In this document: positions 2,577 to 10,782 of the stretch, one piece after another | Layout: every line of letters begins with the position of its first letter | How positions within the stretch are numbered: position 1 is the first letter of the stretch | DNA from: Maridesulfovibrio ferrireducens | GTDB taxonomy: Bacteria > Desulfobacterota > Desulfovibrionia > Desulfovibrionales > Desulfovibrionaceae | DNA length: 64,000 nucleotides | Reading direction: 5' to 3' | Assembly (NCBI RefSeq): GCF_016342405.1 | Contig: NZ_JAEINN010000001.1 | Location: forward strand, 1 to 64,000 | Notes under the pieces: generated by a model | Told to the model about the DNA's origin: nothing | Database searches by the model: none | What the model saw: the letters and a program-made list of their open reading frames with translations, nothing else | Made by a program: the position numbers and the translations under genes

Positions 2577-5500
2577 CTAAGGTGATTTTTTTGTGTGTGT
2601 TGTAGCCTCAATTGCACGTTGACAGTTCATTGATATGTTGGTTGCTGCACAAATTTGCTGTTTCAGCTGAACTGTTGTTGGGAACATATATAGATAGTTT
2701 ACAACAAGCCTTTTTAAAATGGAGTATGGAAGAATATTGTTTTCAAGTTTTTTGCAAAGATTTTTTACGTCTTTAATTGGAAAGGCTTGGAAAAAATCTA
2801 GTTTTATAGCAATGTCTATTACTTCGTTGGCAACGGTTGGGTTTTCTTTGACAATTTTTTTGTAAGTTTCTTCAAGCTTGTCGCTGCCAATTGAGGAAGA
2901 TATTTTTTTTAAAAAACAGTATGATATCTGTTCGCAAATGTGAAATAGTTCTCGTTTTGCACGATCCTCTATTTTGTCCTCTTTTGTTTTGTCTTCTTCG
3001 ATAATTATTTCTTTAATTTCTTCCACTATAAGGGCCAAATTGCTGTTAAGTAGATTGTAAAACTCACTTAAAGATCTTAAGCAAAGATTAAATGCTTCAC
3101 TACATAGTTCTTGTTTCACATTCCCCTTGAGTGAACCGTAGTAGTTTTTTAATATTTGTCCTATAATTTCTTGGTGTTTGAATGCCTTTTGAATTGAAAC
3201 GATGAGTTCATAGGCATCTTTGTCTTTGTCTTGGGTTAGATCAACATGCTCGTGAATAGATTTTTGTTCTATTTGATCTTTTAATTTTAGGTCTTTTTCC
3301 CTGTATTGGTCTACGGAACAATCTTCGAGTTCGATTTGAGGGAGTCTGTTTACTAATTTATTAATTATTTCGACATCTTTTTGTAGTGTTGTAGGCTTGT
3401 TTGTATCGAATATTTTTTTAGAGTTTTGCAGAACCTGTTCTAGTACATAGGGGCTTTTACAGAGGTGTGTTAGGAACATGATTACGTTAGAGCTTTCGTC
3501 AAGGTGGAGTGTTGAACACATTTCCGTAATGATCTTTTGAGCACATTCTTGTTGAATATGTTGTGAGATGTATCTAGCAAGAAAATAATAGTAATAGTAC
3601 GTATATCTAAATGAGAATTCATCATTAAAATTTCTAAGAATATTTGAATCTGTTAATGTCTTTAATAGGCTATTTTTGTCCAAATTAAGAGAGTATTCAT
3701 CACAATATAAGGTATGAAAGTCATTAATTTCTGTTGAAGTTAGAGAAGATGTATTATCAAAAAAGAGCTTGTAGGATAATTCCGTGAGGTAGTTGTACAG
3801 AGCATCAATGTCGTCATTATTAAGCTTTAAATTTTTAAGTGTTCCAGTTATCAAATAATCATAGTAGTATCCATAGGAACTTTCGACAATGCCCTGTTTT
3901 CCTGTGTCATTCATCGAATTTAGTATGGTTATCAAGAAAAAAGGGAATGATGGAACATAGTTTTTTCCAATTACTGTGTCGATAGTTCTTTTTGCCTTGT
4001 CATGTAGGCGAGTTAATTCTTCCTGTGAAAGGTATGTTTCCTGTCCAAGTTCATTCCATTTCGTAATTAGTTTACTCCGTAGAAGGTGCCCAAATGGTTC
4101 AATTTGGTACAAGTGATATTTTCGTCCGATATCGCTAATGTCTTCAGTTACAAATTCTTGAATCTGGAATAGTTCGTCAGCTGTAAGCAAAATATTGTCA
4201 TATGTTGCTGCAAGGGAATTCAGGAGCATACATTTGTATTTGTAATTCAGCTTTGATTTATTGAAGTCATCTATAATAATGAAGATTTTTTCTTTGTCGG
4301 TTTGTTCAAAGAGGTCTTTTTGATCAGTGCTGTATTGTTGAGAAAAAGCGTTCAAGAGTGCTTTTTGGAAGGAATCCAAAGAGTGTTTTTTGATGTCATT
4401 TCCTGATAGTAGTATTGGGATATTTCCATTGTTCTGGTGAAATAAATAAATTTGTTTGCAGAAGGAGCTTCTCCCAGATTTTTCTTCTCCTAGTATAATA
4501 GTTTTTATGGGCGAGGAAGATAGCACCTTTTCAGAGTTGGTGGGAGGAATACATAAATTTTTATGTGATTTTTTTTCTTTGTCTAAATCTCGTAAATCTG
4601 GAAAGACGTATATATCTTGTAAATTAAGGTTTTTTTTGCGTGGATGCATGTATAACATGCCAGGGTCTTTTATGTGTTCTAAATACCCACTGTTAGGTGT
4701 AACTGTTGTTTTAGATTTGGTGGCATTTATTGGAGTCCATTCATCGGTAATAGTAGTTTGTTTGTATATAGATTCTTTGAATTTATGAGTTGTAATGTTG
4801 TATTCAAGGTTGTCTATATTTATGTTGAGTATGTTATATCCACTGTTTTCAGAGTTGCTTGAGTCTTGTAGGACTTGTCCTTCAATGTATACGACTTCCT
4901 GTCCTTCATGGTTTTTAACGTTTGCTGCGTAGAAATCGTGTTCATGTCCTGTTAAGAGAAAGTTAGTTTCTGCTTCAATATTTTTCCTAAAGTCTCTACG
5001 ATCGTCAGGATTAAACCAATTAGGTGTGTGATGCATTGCACAAATTTTTATGCGCGCCTCACTGTTGTTTATAGCAGTATATTTGTATGGGATGATCTTT
5101 CCGGGAACTTCTTTTTTTTCTGACATCCATGCTGAATTAAGTGTAAATATGTCGATGTCTAATCCATTCGAGCACATAACCTTATACTTGTTGCAAAAAA
5201 TGTTTTCGGTGTCAGCTACAGATACTTTGGCATTAAATATGTTGTAGTGTGCTTGTGCATTAAGAATTGGTTGCTCAAATATTTCAATTTTCGATCTGTC
5301 TGCAACGATTGTTTCGATCAGTTGTTCTCTGACCTTCATTGTCGTTTCGTCTTCATGATTGCAGTCGTGGTTTCCTGGGGCAAACATTATTTTTTTTTGT
5401 TCTACTTCGAGGGCATCAAATAAGTTAGCATATAGGTTTTCTGCTAAAGCATATTCTTTTTCACCACCAGAAAAAGCAACGTCGCCTGTTGTAAGGATGA

Positions 5501-5624
5501 TAACTTGATTAGATGATTTTGTGTTGCTGTTTATAGAGCTAGCGAGGCGATCAAGTTTGTCAAAAATATGGTTGTCATCTGTTTTTAAATGAATGTCGCT
5601 TAGGTGGACTACTGATATTATCAC
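2577..5624 (-). CDS. Metallophosphoesterase-STAND NTPase, probable anti-phage protein
   Basis: Two-part protein of 1015 residues. The N-terminal calcineurin-like metallophosphoesterase has all five motifs: D10-x-H12, GDVAFSG (47-53), GNHD (84-87), HH (198-199) and GHEH (226-229). After a linker comes a NACHT/STAND-like P-loop domain with GEEKSGRSS at 379-387 and a Walker B IFIIIDD at 447-453. A long helical, Tyr-rich C-terminal part follows, which could be the sensor. The Walker A lysine is replaced by arginine, which is unusual. I chose the GTG at 5624 because it has AGAGG at the right distance and begins at the first phosphoesterase strand; the longer TTG start at 5663 lacks a clear site. 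Base composition is much more A+T-rich than its neighbours, a sign of transfer. A defence role is inferred from architecture and from the neighbouring abiE and integrase genes. Confidence 0.75.
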   Translation of the reverse strand: MIISVVHLSDIHLKTDDNHIFDKLDRLASSINSNTKSSNQVIILTTGDVAFSGGEKEYALAENLYANLFDALEVEQKKIMFAPGNHDCNHEDETTMKVREQLIETIVADRSKIEIFEQPILNAQAHYNIFNAKVSVADTENIFCNKYKVMCSNGLDIDIFTLNSAWMSEKKEVPGKIIPYKYTAINNSEARIKICAMHHTPNWFNPDDRRDFRKNIEAETNFLLTGHEHDFYAANVKNHEGQEVVYIEGQVLQDSSNSENSGYNILNINIDNLEYNITTHKFKESIYKQTTITDEWTPINATKSKTTVTPNSGYLEHIKDPGMLYMHPRKKNLNLQDIYVFPDLRDLDKEKKSHKNLCIPPTNSEKVLSSSPIKTIILGEEKSGRSSFCKQIYLFHQNNGNIPILLSGNDIKKHSLDSFQKALLNAFSQQYSTDQKDLFEQTDKEKIFIIIDDFNKSKLNYKYKCMLLNSLAATYDNILLTADELFQIQEFVTEDISDIGRKYHLYQIEPFGHLLRSKLITKWNELGQETYLSQEELTRLHDKAKRTIDTVIGKNYVPSFPFFLITILNSMNDTGKQGIVESSYGYYYDYLITGTLKNLKLNNDDIDALYNYLTELSYKLFFDNTSSLTSTEINDFHTLYCDEYSLNLDKNSLLKTLTDSNILRNFNDEFSFRYTYYYYYFLARYISQHIQQECAQKIITEMCSTLHLDESSNVIMFLTHLCKSPYVLEQVLQNSKKIFDTNKPTTLQKDVEIINKLVNRLPQIELEDCSVDQYREKDLKLKDQIEQKSIHEHVDLTQDKDKDAYELIVSIQKAFKHQEIIGQILKNYYGSLKGNVKQELCSEAFNLCLRSLSEFYNLLNSNLALIVEEIKEIIIEEDKTKEDKIEDRAKRELFHICEQISYCFLKKISSSIGSDKLEETYKKIVKENPTVANEVIDIAIKLDFFQAFPIKDVKNLCKKLENNILPYSILKRLVVNYLYMFPTTVQLKQQICAATNISMNCQRAIEATTHTKKSP

Positions 5625-5721: not shown

Positions 5722-6900
5722 TCACATCTCTAGCACTTCAACCGCCCTCCGTAATCCCTCCGGCGAAAGATGACTATACCGCTGGGTCATCTTAAAATCT
5801 TGATGCCCCATTAATTCCTTTACGCTGTAGAGATCTACACTACGCTGAACCAACCATGAGGCGAAGGTATGTCTTAGGGTGTGAAAGCATACTCGAAGGC
5901 GCACGTCTTTGATTCCTTCATTGAACATGGGATCTACTATTTTACTAAATACATTTGATATGCTGGACATTTTTTCGCCTGTGGTGGACGGGAAAACTAG
6001 ATCTGAGTTTTGTCCGTGATGTTTTTCGCGGCGATTTGAAAGCATCACGACTATATCTTCTAGTAAATACGCTTGGCGGTTAACCTTCCCTTTCGTGTCT
6101 CTGATTGAGGTCAGCTTTTCGGCAAGGTCAATGTCATTCCAAGTTAGGGCGGCTATTTCTCCGAAACGTAAGCCGCAACGCAGGGCAAGTAAGGCCATGT
6201 CGTGAGTGTGGCCGCCGTGTTGTTTAAGCTCAGCAAGTAAGGTTTGAGCTTCTTCAGGTGTGAGAAAGCGTTCCCGACGGTTGTCTTGCTTGGGAATTGA
6301 TATTTGCTGAGTAGGACTGTTGCCATGGACGTAGTTATCTCGGCGGGCTTGAGTCCAGAGTTGGGAAATGACAGCGAAGACATATCTAATGGTTGAGGAG
6401 GCCCGCTTCTTTTTGAGCAGGGCGTTTTTAATTATCTCAATGTCTTTCGGCTGAATGTCGCTGAGCGGTGTGGCTCCGATAGCTGGAGCAATCCAGTTGC
6501 GGTAAAGACCTTCTTCTGTTTTTGTGGACCCTTTAGCTTTGTGGCTTTGTTGCGGCCAGTAGTGGGCATCCCAAAATTCCGAAAAGGTTATACTGGCTTT
6601 TTTATCACTTTCCCGTTTTTGAGTTTCTTCTTCTCGTTTCTTCGTCGCGATCTCTCTTTTTTCACTTAAAGAAATGCAACCTTCACCTGTCCTGATGTTT
6701 TCTTTCAGCTTTGCCAGAGTCAAGGCGGCCTTTACTTCAGTCCATCCTTCAGAACCCCATCCTAGAGTTGGTTGAAACCTTTTTCCGCATGCGGAGTATC
6801 TGAGGCCAAAACAGCGATCAATACGCGGACCATGCTTTCGAGTAGAATGTTCATACCAGCGCACACCGGGATATTTTTCAGAGGTAATCCATTTTCGCAT
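5722..6900 (-). CDS. Tyrosine recombinase / island integrase
   Basis: Site-specific recombinase of 392 residues, the usual length for tRNA-targeting island integrases. The N-terminal 100 residues are an arm-binding region, followed by a SAM-like core-binding domain (about 105-190). The catalytic domain has R245 (GLRFGE), a lysine near 270-272, H340-x-x-R343 (HTLRHTF), H366 and the nucleophile Y375 (RYSHL), so all catalytic residues are present. The start ATG at 6900 has AAGG upstream. It lies about 170 bp from a tRNA-Thr 3' fragment, the expected position relative to an attachment site. A mutated partial copy of its catalytic domain lies at 538-623. Confidence 0.92.
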   Translation of the reverse strand: MRKWITSEKYPGVRWYEHSTRKHGPRIDRCFGLRYSACGKRFQPTLGWGSEGWTEVKAALTLAKLKENIRTGEGCISLSEKREIATKKREEETQKRESDKKASITFSEFWDAHYWPQQSHKAKGSTKTEEGLYRNWIAPAIGATPLSDIQPKDIEIIKNALLKKKRASSTIRYVFAVISQLWTQARRDNYVHGNSPTQQISIPKQDNRRERFLTPEEAQTLLAELKQHGGHTHDMALLALRCGLRFGEIAALTWNDIDLAEKLTSIRDTKGKVNRQAYLLEDIVVMLSNRREKHHGQNSDLVFPSTTGEKMSSISNVFSKIVDPMFNEGIKDVRLRVCFHTLRHTFASWLVQRSVDLYSVKELMGHQDFKMTQRYSHLSPEGLRRAVEVLEM

Positions 6901-6963: not shown

Positions 6964-7066
6964 TTCACCTGAAATGACATGAACATTTATGAAAGTCTAG
7001 TTTAATTAATAATCAAGTAAAACAGTGAGATATGTTGAATATAGCAGATTTAGAAAATGGTGTAAA

Positions 7067-7116
7067 ACTGATTCGTAATCAGTAGGTCGTCAGTTCAATT
7101 CTGATCGTTGGCTCCA
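7067..7116 (+). other. Truncated tRNA-Thr(CGT) 3' half; probable attachment site
   Basis: The sequence has an intact anticodon arm (ACTGA-TTCGTAA-TCAGT, anticodon CGT), a variable loop, a T arm (GTCAG-TTCAATT-CTGAT), and an acceptor 3' strand CGTTGGC followed by TCCA. No 5' acceptor strand or D arm precedes it: the 60 bases upstream cannot pair with CGTTGGC. It is therefore a 3' tRNA fragment such as integrases of this family leave at the far end of an island, while the intact tRNA lies off the window. A terminator hairpin follows directly. Confidence 0.65.
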
Positions 7117-7124
7117 GTAAAAGT

Positions 7125-7171: not shown

Positions 7172-8260
7172 TCAGAGATTGTACAAATTCATGTTGGGAG
7201 ACTGGTTCAGAGGCATGTCCGGCCTGATGTGTTTTTTGGCCAACTGGCGGACATCATCCATGGTTTTTGCCGTGGAAAAGGTGGCCAGCAGGCTGTGACC
7301 AAATAGGAAATTGGCTGCAAAATAGGGTATGAACATCCGAAATCTTTTGATTCTTCGGACGGGATCGAACTCCTGCTCCAAGGCTGTGGCCAGACGCAGG
7401 ATGTAGTCTTGAAAAATATTGTCGTCGGGCGTGTAGCCAGCTGTCCATTGGGCAAAGAGCCACGGGCGGGCTATAGCCATACGCCCTATGGACACACCAT
7501 CGCAGCCTGTCGTGTCCAGCATATTCTGACAGTGTTGCGGGGTTGTGACATTGCCATTGCCAAAGACGGGAATGGAGACCGCTTCTTTAATGAAGCGTAT
7601 GTTGTCAATGACAGGGGGACGGGTGCGCTTGTCCGGGGCCACACGCGGGTGGAAGACCAGACAATCGGTTCCTGCCGCCTCAAGCTTTTTGGCCAGAGCC
7701 ACTGCTGGCCCGATATCCTTGGACCAGCCGGTGCGGAATTTGACAAAAACAGGAATGGATACCGCCTTTCGTACTGCTTCCACCACGGCCATGGCTTTGT
7801 CTGGTGTCTTGAGCAGGGCCGCTCCCCCCTCGCGTTTGATCATTCCACGAGCTGAGCATCCCATATTGATGTCCACGCCGAAGAAGCCTTCGCGCTCCAC
7901 ACGCTTTGCTGCAATCACCAATTCTTCTGGCGAGCTGCCCGCCAATTGACAGACCAAGCTGGGTAGTTCCCATTCATGCCACCGAAAGACCGGAGATATT
8001 CTGGGGTTTTCTGATGGCACGGCTTTGGCGTTGCACATTTCCGTAAAGGCTAAGCCGCAGGAGCCATAGTGGGCGAGAACCTGACGAAAGGCGCTGTGGC
8101 TCAATCCGGCCATGGGGGCTAGCCACAGGCGATTGGGGATGGTTTTTCCGCCAACGGCAATGGGGGTGTTGAGCTGTGCTGCCAGCTTGGGGAAATGGGG
8201 AGGAATGGGTTTGTTCATAGAGGCTGCAAGATGAGTTATGGGTGTCATGGGATGCAGCAT
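7172..8260 (-). CDS. tRNA-dihydrouridine synthase, DusB-like
   Basis: Flavin-dependent enzyme that reduces uridine to dihydrouridine in the D loop of tRNAs. The TIM-barrel signatures are clear: LAPMAGLSHSAFR near the N-terminus for FMN binding, and DINMGCSARGMIKREGGAALL with the catalytic cysteine (Dus proteins usually have NxGCP; here the proline is a serine). FHPRVAPDKRTRPP and GNGNV plus CDGVSIGRMAIARPW for phosphate binding follow. The length of 362 residues includes an N-terminal stretch whose start is uncertain: ATG at 8260 or at the later MNKPIPP, and neither has a strong ribosome-binding site. It is isolated between two tRNA-Thr 3' fragments, so it may be island cargo or the old chromosomal neighbour of the tRNA. 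Confidence 0.88.
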   Translation of the reverse strand: MLHPMTPITHLAASMNKPIPPHFPKLAAQLNTPIAVGGKTIPNRLWLAPMAGLSHSAFRQVLAHYGSCGLAFTEMCNAKAVPSENPRISPVFRWHEWELPSLVCQLAGSSPEELVIAAKRVEREGFFGVDINMGCSARGMIKREGGAALLKTPDKAMAVVEAVRKAVSIPVFVKFRTGWSKDIGPAVALAKKLEAAGTDCLVFHPRVAPDKRTRPPVIDNIRFIKEAVSIPVFGNGNVTTPQHCQNMLDTTGCDGVSIGRMAIARPWLFAQWTAGYTPDDNIFQDYILRLATALEQEFDPVRRIKRFRMFIPYFAANFLFGHSLLATFSTAKTMDDVRQLAKKHIRPDMPLNQSPNMNLYNL

Positions 8261-8432
8261 TGCGTATACTGTTGCTGCACAAGGTGCAAGTCTTGAGACC
8301 TGGAAAAGGAGCTTTTCCGTGTCACTTCTGATTGAAATTCATTATACGCAAGGTGTACTCATAAATGCGTATAAAACTAGGTGGGTTAAGCTGGTTTTTT
8401 GGCAGTTGCCGGCGGGATTTATGATTTTCCTT

Positions 8433-8480
8433 CAGCTCGTAATCCGTAGGTCTCCAGTTCAACTTTGATCGTTGGCTCCA
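8433..8480 (+). other. Second, decayed tRNA-Thr 3' fragment
   Basis: This 48-base stretch aligns with the fragment at 7067-7116: CTCGTAA anticodon loop, GTAGGTC, TTCAA, and the identical 3' end GATCGTTGGCTCCAG. The anticodon and T stems contain mismatches and no 5' half precedes it, so it cannot be a working tRNA. It is probably an older attachment-site copy. A terminator hairpin follows. Confidence 0.6.
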
Positions 8481-8490
8481 GAATCAAATT

Positions 8491-8526
8491 AAGGGTTTAC
8501 ATGTAAAATGTAAGCCCTTTTATTTT
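8491..8526 (+). terminator. Intrinsic terminator after the second tRNA fragment
   Basis: Stem AAGGGTTTACAT with ATGTAAGCCCTT (one G-T wobble), followed by TTTATTTT. It has the same arrangement as at 7125-7166 but an unrelated sequence, which suggests two distinct tRNA-bearing loci contributed to the region. Confidence 0.7.
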
Positions 8527-8963: not shown

Positions 8964-9677
8964 ATGCAGTTGGTATTTAATTGGCACATTACAGAAGCGT
9001 GTAACTATTCTTGCTGTTATTGTTTTGCAAGATGGGGACGACCAAGGGAAATCTGGAAAAACAGTACAGTTTGTGACCGTTTGTTTACAGAGTTGTCGAA
9101 ATTTTCAAGTTTGGATAGTTGCAAAAAGATATTCGAAGACAGGTCTGTTTCAAATATTAGGATTAATTTTGTCGGAGGAGAACCTTTACTCTTAGGCGAG
9201 TCGTTGATCACAATAATCGACAGGGTGGTCTGTGAATTCGGTTTCTCCGCCTCAATTGTAACTAATGCTTCTTTATTGGAAGGTTGTCTTGATATTCTGG
9301 AGAATATAGAAACAATAGGTATCTCGATAGATTCATTTGCCACTGACACTAATAGGTTAATCGGAAGAGCAGCATGTTGCAAAGATGTTCTCAGTGGGAA
9401 GGATTATAAAAGAATTATCAATTTAGTTCGTAATAGAAATCCTGAAATCAAAGTCAAGGTTACCAGCGTTGTCAGCGAACATAACTGCGGCGAGGAATTA
9501 CTGAAAGATATTGATGCGCTGGCTCCTGATAGAGTAAAGGTTTTCAGGCAACTGCCATTTGAAGGGAACAAAGGAATAACTGATGAAATGTTTGACTCTT
9601 TTATAGTTAACAATGTCATATAGTTAAAAAACTCAGTAGTTGAATCAAATTCAGATATGGAGGAAAGCTACCTAATC
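8964..9677 (+). pseudogene. Prokaryotic viperin (radical SAM) with amber stop and lost C-terminus
   Basis: Viperins are radical-SAM enzymes that make 3'-deoxy-3',4'-didehydro nucleotides, chain terminators for viral polymerases. The frame opens with NWHITEACNYSCCYCFA, carrying the cluster motif C13-x3-C17-x2-C20. It continues with FVGGEP (69-74), GISIDSF and NRLIGRA (119-136), and DRVKVFRQLPFEG (189-201). These match human viperin segments (SCDSF, NVLIGRG, VRWKVFQCLLIEGE) in order and spacing. A TAG at 9621-9623 ends the frame at 219 residues, but the same frame goes on with VVESNSDMEESYLI, the counterpart of viperin VPESNQKMKDSYLI. All homology then stops at about 9677. The gene has thus lost its C-terminal domain, and the stop precedes the loss. 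Ribosome-binding site: AGAGGA. Confidence 0.8.
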
Positions 9678-10782
9678 AGCTTAATACGGCTGTCACCAAT
9701 TTTTTCAACAAGTTTTTTGGCTATTTCGTAAGAGTTGTCCGTTGACCCATCATTGATGGGAATTATTTCCCAGTTTGTCCATGTTTGATTTATAACAGAA
9801 GCTACAGCTTCTTCGAGGTAATGGCCTTGATTAAATAGTGGAATTACAACGCTTACTTTTTCAGGCCCGGAAACGGTGGGGGCTTGAAAAGGAAAGTATT
9901 GGGTTATTAGTTTGTAAAGCCTCATCAAGGCGGGGCGTTCACTCACAACACTGAAACTTGTTTCCATCATCTGGCGGGCGTTCTCTATTTCTCCTGAGAA
10001 TAGGGCCAGTAGACAGTATCGGAAAATATGTCGGTCATAATCATCAATTGATTCCAGAATTCCATTTTGCAGTTTTTTAAAAAGTTCCGTTGTCTGCGTA
10101 ATGTGGTGCTGATAAATATTGGTTAGTTCTTTGACGGGAAGAGTTGTAAATTCTCGTTCAAAGATTTTTTTTTGATACTTTTCAAGGACGCTGTTTTCTT
10201 CGTCCATAATCCGCTGTTCATTTTCTTTTTGAGTCCTTTTTGAGCTGGCTGGAATTTTTTGTATATATGAAGGAGGAAGAATTTGAAATTTTGTTTGTAA
10301 AGAGAGTCTGAGCAGTAGTTCCGGCAGAACGAAAAAAATAAATTCTTATGGAGATTGGCTATATGTTTTTCAATAAGGTCATTCTTAAAAATTGTTAGAA
10401 GAGGATAAAAAGGGTTTTGCAATATATCCAGAACAAAAGAACTGGGAGAAGTGTCATCGGAATTATGCCTGACAACTGCAAAACCGCATTCTGTACTGTT
10501 TTGAATATTCACAATTGCCGAGGAGAAGGCATTTTCGGAAAAAGTTGTTCTTCCGTCAATAATAGTAGTTAGGCCGTTTGGATACAGTTTGATTGCTTTT
10601 TGAAGGGCTTTTTCCAGGACAGTAGCGGAAGCGGAGGGTTCAAAAGAGCGGAAGAGGTCAAGCTGATTTGTTTCCTTACAAATTTTTTCTAACATTGAAA
10701 CAGATCAGTCCGGAAGGTCTGCTGCAGCAATTGCCAAACGATTAAACAGGAATAGCTTTTGGTTGTCTAGAATGATCCTTGG
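9668..10782 (-). pseudogene. Decayed family 2 glycosyltransferase gene
   Basis: Two overlapping minus-strand frames (10695-10123 and 10207-9668) together give one degraded protein. The upstream frame has DGRTTFSENAFSSAIVNIQ. The downstream frame ends in a GT-A nucleotide-binding start: KVSVVIPLFNQGHYLEEAV, NQTWTNWEIIPINDGSTD and DSRIKLIR. In intact GT2 enzymes about 150 or more residues follow KLIR, but here the stop codon comes at once. Upstream of the ATG at 10695 the same frame continues (FNRLAIAAADLPD) past an in-frame TGA at 10705-10707. The lesions are a frameshift near 10210-10250, an internal stop, and loss of the 3' end at the viperin junction. Confidence 0.65.

Follow-up and report, generated by a model that had tools for sequence, protein, structure and literature searches.

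A DS-8 family anti-phage protein with arginine at the Walker A lysine position, encoded on a probable integrative element in Desulfovibrionaceae

The gene at positions 2577–5624 of the 64-kb stretch of Maridesulfovibrio ferrireducens DNA analyzed here (the window) is, judged by its profile match, a member of the already described DS-8 family of anti-phage proteins. It very likely lies on an integrative element and encodes an anti-phage protein in which a NACHT switch would control an N-terminal metallophosphoesterase (MPE) and would be triggered by a phage product. The gene is ordinary apart from an arginine, R385, at the Walker A lysine position. DS-8 is thereby placed on a mobile element in Desulfovibrionaceae, and the window protein offers a natural test of whether a NACHT switch needs the P-loop lysine.

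Organization of the Gene and its Product

A single intact gene of 1015 codons was found on the minus strand, running from a GTG start at 5624, with AGAGGAA immediately 5′ of it, to a stop at 2577; the plus strand was full of stops and closed in that frame across the same interval. The original prediction had given these coordinates correctly without a strand, and the complete five-motif phosphoesterase, the GEEKSGRSS and IIIDD motifs and the long helical C-terminus it described were all recovered from the minus-strand ORF. The 1015-aa product matched the NCBIfam equivalog DS8_antiphage (NF053861) at 993.3 bits against a cut-off of 790, over positions 1–994 of 994.

All features of the protein are encoded on the minus strand. 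The MPE domain, the putative effector, comprises residues 1–300 (4725–5624) and was delimited by Pfam (Metallophos, 3.9e-13), invariant columns and fold matches. Its motifs HLSDIH (residue 7), TGDVAFSG (46), GNHDC (84), MHHTPNW (197) and GHEHD (226) contain all of the metal-binding and catalytic residues D10, H12, D48, N85, H198, H227, and H229. The NACHT/STAND NTPase core, recognized by its fold matches, extends from about residue 320 to 530 (4035–4667). It includes Walker A, GEEKSGRSS, at residues 379–387 (4464–4490), with the AGA codon of R385 at 4470–4472, and Walker B, IIIDD, at residues 449–453 (4266–4280), in which D452 is invariant among the relatives. Pfam nSTAND_NTPase4 was matched over its cut-off (5.6e-15) by residues 627–682 (3579–3746). 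Residues 690–1015 (2580–3557) form a C-terminal helical region, presumed to be the sensor; in the secondary-structure prediction the helices span from about residue 675 to 1013.

Mobile Element

The DS-8 gene is located between an AbiE pair (626–2331) and an integrase gene, all on the minus strand. The pair consists of the AbiEii nucleotidyltransferase toxin (626–1558) and the AbiEi antitoxin (1555–2331), both identified by Pfam, and the tyrosine integrase (5722–6900) matched Phage_integrase at 3.9e-33. GC content of this stretch was about 0.35 compared with 0.38–0.51 elsewhere in the window. A 57-bp sequence at 7066–7122 on the plus strand is identical to the 3′ end of tRNA-Thr(CGT) together with the bases that follow it. 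This copy is flanked by the integrase gene and a dihydrouridine-synthase-like gene (7172–8260, named from its sequence) and is probably an attachment-site repeat marking the end of the element. The presence of AbiE, the integrase and the tRNA-Thr copy next to the DS-8 gene places it on a mobile element.

The intact tRNA-Thr gene was found on contig C19 at about 8441–8516, beside formate-dehydrogenase-like genes that were named by eye. Between it and the contig end (1–8440; genome G000, locus L138), C19 encodes a relaxase and a Prim-Pol primase; the three other ORFs next to tRNA-Thr gave no Pfam match. In a sibling genome (G005), a single contig holds both tRNA-Thr and the dihydrouridine-synthase-like gene, separated by about 9 kb that contain other genes. 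The intact tRNA-Thr gene on C19, the 57-bp copy and the arrangement in G005 together indicate that the ends of C19 and of the window contig, C1, are very probably the two halves of one integrative, mobilizable element. A weaker second tRNA-Thr copy was detected at about 8430–8492 (plus strand), on the far side of the dihydrouridine-synthase-like gene, and many sibling genomes showed several tRNA-Thr 3′-end copies close together, so that the site looks like a hotspot of repeated insertion.

Elsewhere in the window, a gene looks disrupted at 9668–10695 (minus strand), where two ORFs overlap and one of them encodes the beginning of a family 2 glycosyltransferase. A lone gene at 8964–9623 (plus strand) encodes a radical SAM protein of just 219 aa. 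No RNA was found by Rfam in the 64-kb window and predicted promoters were not in excess over shuffled sequences; terminator-like sites numbered 15 compared with 6.7 in shuffles.

Predicted Structure

An AlphaFold2 model of the whole protein, built on an alignment of 46 relatives, had a mean pLDDT of 84. In this model, residues 1–303 matched purple acid phosphatases, Rv0805, GpdQ, and SMPDL3A/B at Z 19–22, including Z 21 for Rv0805 and 19.5–19.9 for SMPDL3A; Mre11 nucleases were matched at Z about 18. The highest-ranking row of the fold comparison, 9a6c (Z 28.7), comes from integrative modeling and was left out of the reasoning.

The region after residue 320 was predicted separately (pLDDT 86, pTM 0.83), and NLR-family entries made up most of the top of its fold-match list. 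It matched NLRC4 at Z 13.7 over 406 residues with an rmsd of 6.6, and NLRP3 and NOD2 at Z about 12; the Foldseek E value was about 1e-8 with NLRC4 and 2e-4 with Avs4. The similarity to STAND ATPases assumed in the original prediction was thus found, and the predicted structure supports an SMPDL3A/Rv0805-like MPE joined to a NACHT of the NLR type.

Relatives and Exchange of the Effector

Relatives were collected from a plasmid collection, genomes of the class, viral contigs and 84,980 species genomes, from which the best 80 of 134 relatives were kept. An alignment of the STAND module was an effective query for genome contigs; a single-sequence back-translation search of these contigs gave no match. 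The named phage genomes searched gave no match either, while viral contigs do carry relatives. The relatives come from more than ten phyla and occur on plasmids and proviruses, near restriction-modification genes and integrases. The fetched full-length relatives were about 24–37% identical to the window protein, and the nearest relative showed 41% identity to it across the module. One relative, on a viral contig (L015, 5971–9075), is split into several frames and looks broken or frameshifted.

The module tree contained 89 rows, of which 49, the window protein included, have an MPE and 31 carry a TIR-like domain N-terminal to the NACHT/C-terminal module. The TIR S..C..E motif, which holds the usual TIR glutamate, was present in 29 of the 31 TIR-bearing relatives. 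Seven relatives lacked a recognized N-terminal effector, one of them because of a contig cut. MPE proteins were found on both sides of a branch with SH-aLRT 99, and the effector has therefore been exchanged at least once; the tree was built rapidly and has some long branches, and no exact number of exchanges is claimed. The comparison suggests that the MPE is a toxic effector that can be exchanged on a NACHT/C-terminal module.

The TIR-module fusions (L011, L012, L013, and 28 further loci) occur across many phyla, in chromosomes and plasmids as well as on viral contigs; L011, L012, and L013 had high scores for the PADLOC candidate PDC-S60, and the libraries searched contained no named family matching them over their full length. 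In the cyanobacterial loci L057, L061, L076, and L079, only 8–31 residues precede the module and no effector is fused to it.

Proposed Mode of Action

In a resting cell, the NLR-like STAND switch would keep the MPE inactive. By analogy with the STAND class, a phage product would be bound by the helical C-terminus and binding would lead to NTP-dependent oligomerization of the NACHT. This would activate the MPE, which would cleave a putative phosphodiester substrate, either nucleic acid or an essential or signaling nucleotide. Phage production would be stopped, probably at the expense of the infected cell. DS-8 has been shown to block phage in Escherichia coli, with the MPE and the NACHT ATPase each being required (PMC13092281). 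A defense protein with an MPE effector and a STAND switch, as originally predicted, is supported by the DS-8 equivalog, the NLR folds, the AbiE/mobile-element context and the lack of a recurrent housekeeping partner near relatives; the additional proposal of a poorly described subtype marked by the arginine is not supported, since DS-8 has already been described and 89 of 91 proteins have the lysine.

The authors of the DS-8 study suggest, from similarity to SMPDL3A, that DS-8 degrades a cyclic nucleotide (PMC13092281). The phosphoesterase would then be no toxin and would remove a signal instead, in line with its fold matches to SMPDL3A and to Rv0805, which is a cyclic-nucleotide phosphodiesterase. 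Purple acid phosphatases matched equally well and Mre11 nearly so, and the fold therefore does not choose the substrate. TIR domains of known defense proteins destroy NAD+. Since a TIR fills the same slot on the same module, a destructive phosphoesterase is the more economical assumption and is favored by this analogy, and we regard signal removal as rather unlikely.

A housekeeping phosphoesterase-ATPase of the SbcD/Mre11 repair-nuclease type is very improbable: besides the Mre11 fold matches it has in its favor a weak match to the curated SbcD model (17 bits, E 0.004, cut-off 77.65), whereas no SbcC/Rad50 partner was seen beside the gene, only one of 17 genomes from the genus was seen to have the full-length gene, the relatives have no recurrent partner gene, and defense has been shown experimentally for the family (PMC13092281). 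Around 28 MPE relatives, restriction-modification genes of types I, II, and III were found along with integrases, and any one Pfam family accounted for at most 5 of 72 neighbor proteins, which argues against a housekeeping operon, the setting that would have spoken against the original prediction.

Arginine in the Walker A Motif

The alignment comprised 92 sequences including the window protein, and 91 of them had a residue at the Walker A lysine position. Lysine was present in 89 and arginine in two, the window protein and L086, a protein from a Spartobacterial MAG. The 91 include near-duplicates (L005/L052, L060/L062, L044/L045, and L099/L100), and the picture is the same despite them. Being confined to the window protein and one distant relative, the arginine is an isolated substitution, and ‘GR’, which the original prediction proposed to look for among relatives, was dropped as a subtype marker. 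L086 uses the codon CGG and branches at a great distance from the window protein on the module tree; the lysine-to-arginine change therefore probably arose twice, independently. The MPE motifs of L086 are intact, and so is its Walker B. No paper on such a change in the Walker A of NACHT proteins was found in the literature.

Among 57 strongly conserved columns, the window protein departs at its start residue and at Y263, R385, I565, and N569, and relatives depart at 0–9. These four departures and the intact frame give no indication of general decay: as far as the alignment goes, R385 is an isolated change at an otherwise nearly fixed residue in a gene whose divergence does not exceed that of its relatives. 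The additional lysine in GEEK, K382, was considered as compensation and rejected, because relatives with a normal K385 (e.g., L018, L066, and L069) also carry K382.

R385 is most likely a lineage-specific change that would lower NTP hydrolysis or binding, and altered nucleotide use, as originally suggested, is possible. The arginine makes it doubtful that the NACHT binds and hydrolyzes NTP in the usual way. The probability left beside the two readings that follow goes to R385 having little effect. The first of them, a recent loss-of-function mutation or base-call error in an impaired or inactive DS-8 heading to decay, is a substantial possibility that falls short of an even chance. A single transition separates the AGA codon (window 4472–4470) from AAA, which is the gene's preferred codon for lysine; the assembly is a draft of 61 contigs and the lysine is almost invariant elsewhere. 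In DS-8, defense was lost upon mutation of a residue on which the NACHT ATPase activity likely depends (PMC13092281); as the arginine replaces a residue kept in 98% of the sequences, the window copy may likewise be inactive. Against decay stand the frame, open through all 1015 codons, the departures at conserved columns, which are about as frequent as in relatives, and the arginine of the distant L086 in an otherwise intact set of motifs.

P-loop lysine-to-arginine mutants of some NTPases, such as RecA and Rad51, bind ATP and do not hydrolyze it. R385 could accordingly belong to a working but altered switch, in which NTP would be bound with slow or absent hydrolysis and which would be set by binding alone or reset slowly. 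The arginine retains the positive charge, and the change appears to have occurred twice independently in genes that are both intact. Its presence in only 2 of 91 sequences and the lack of an evident compensating residue weigh against such a switch, which we consider a less probable explanation than loss of function. More doubtful again is the wider proposal that a natural NLR-like immune switch using a P-loop arginine, with binding and no or very slow hydrolysis, has evolved at least twice in the DS-8 family.

Comparison with Known Systems

The window protein has the organization of DS-8 (DefensePredictor; NF053861), a single protein with MPE, NACHT and helical C-terminus in this order, and differs from it by the arginine in Walker A. 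Compared with the NACHT consensus GxxxxGK[ST], the fold and Walker B are present and arginine occupies the lysine position, as it also does in the DS-8-like L086. The TIR-NACHT relatives, e.g., L011 from a Vibrio plasmid, share the STAND core and C-terminus with about 25% identity over the module, but have a TIR in place of the MPE and the Walker A lysine. That one NACHT/C-terminal module bears either a phosphoesterase or a TIR favors a destructive role of the DS-8 phosphoesterase.

PDC-S60, on which no paper was found, matched the NACHT and C-terminal module with 440 bits (residues 318–1026 of the 1028-aa frame); this match starts at profile position 185 and does not cover the MPE. DS-9A (NF053862) has a homologous phosphoesterase (59.3 bits, far below the cut-off of 420), but is a two-gene system with a HAD phosphatase. 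No Avs family model was among the PADLOC matches up to E = 1, and the likeness to Avs4 is one of fold only. The Avs/AVAST STAND proteins and animal NLRs share with the window protein the STAND/NACHT switch fold and the order of effector first and sensor last, whereas their effectors and C-terminal sensors are different.
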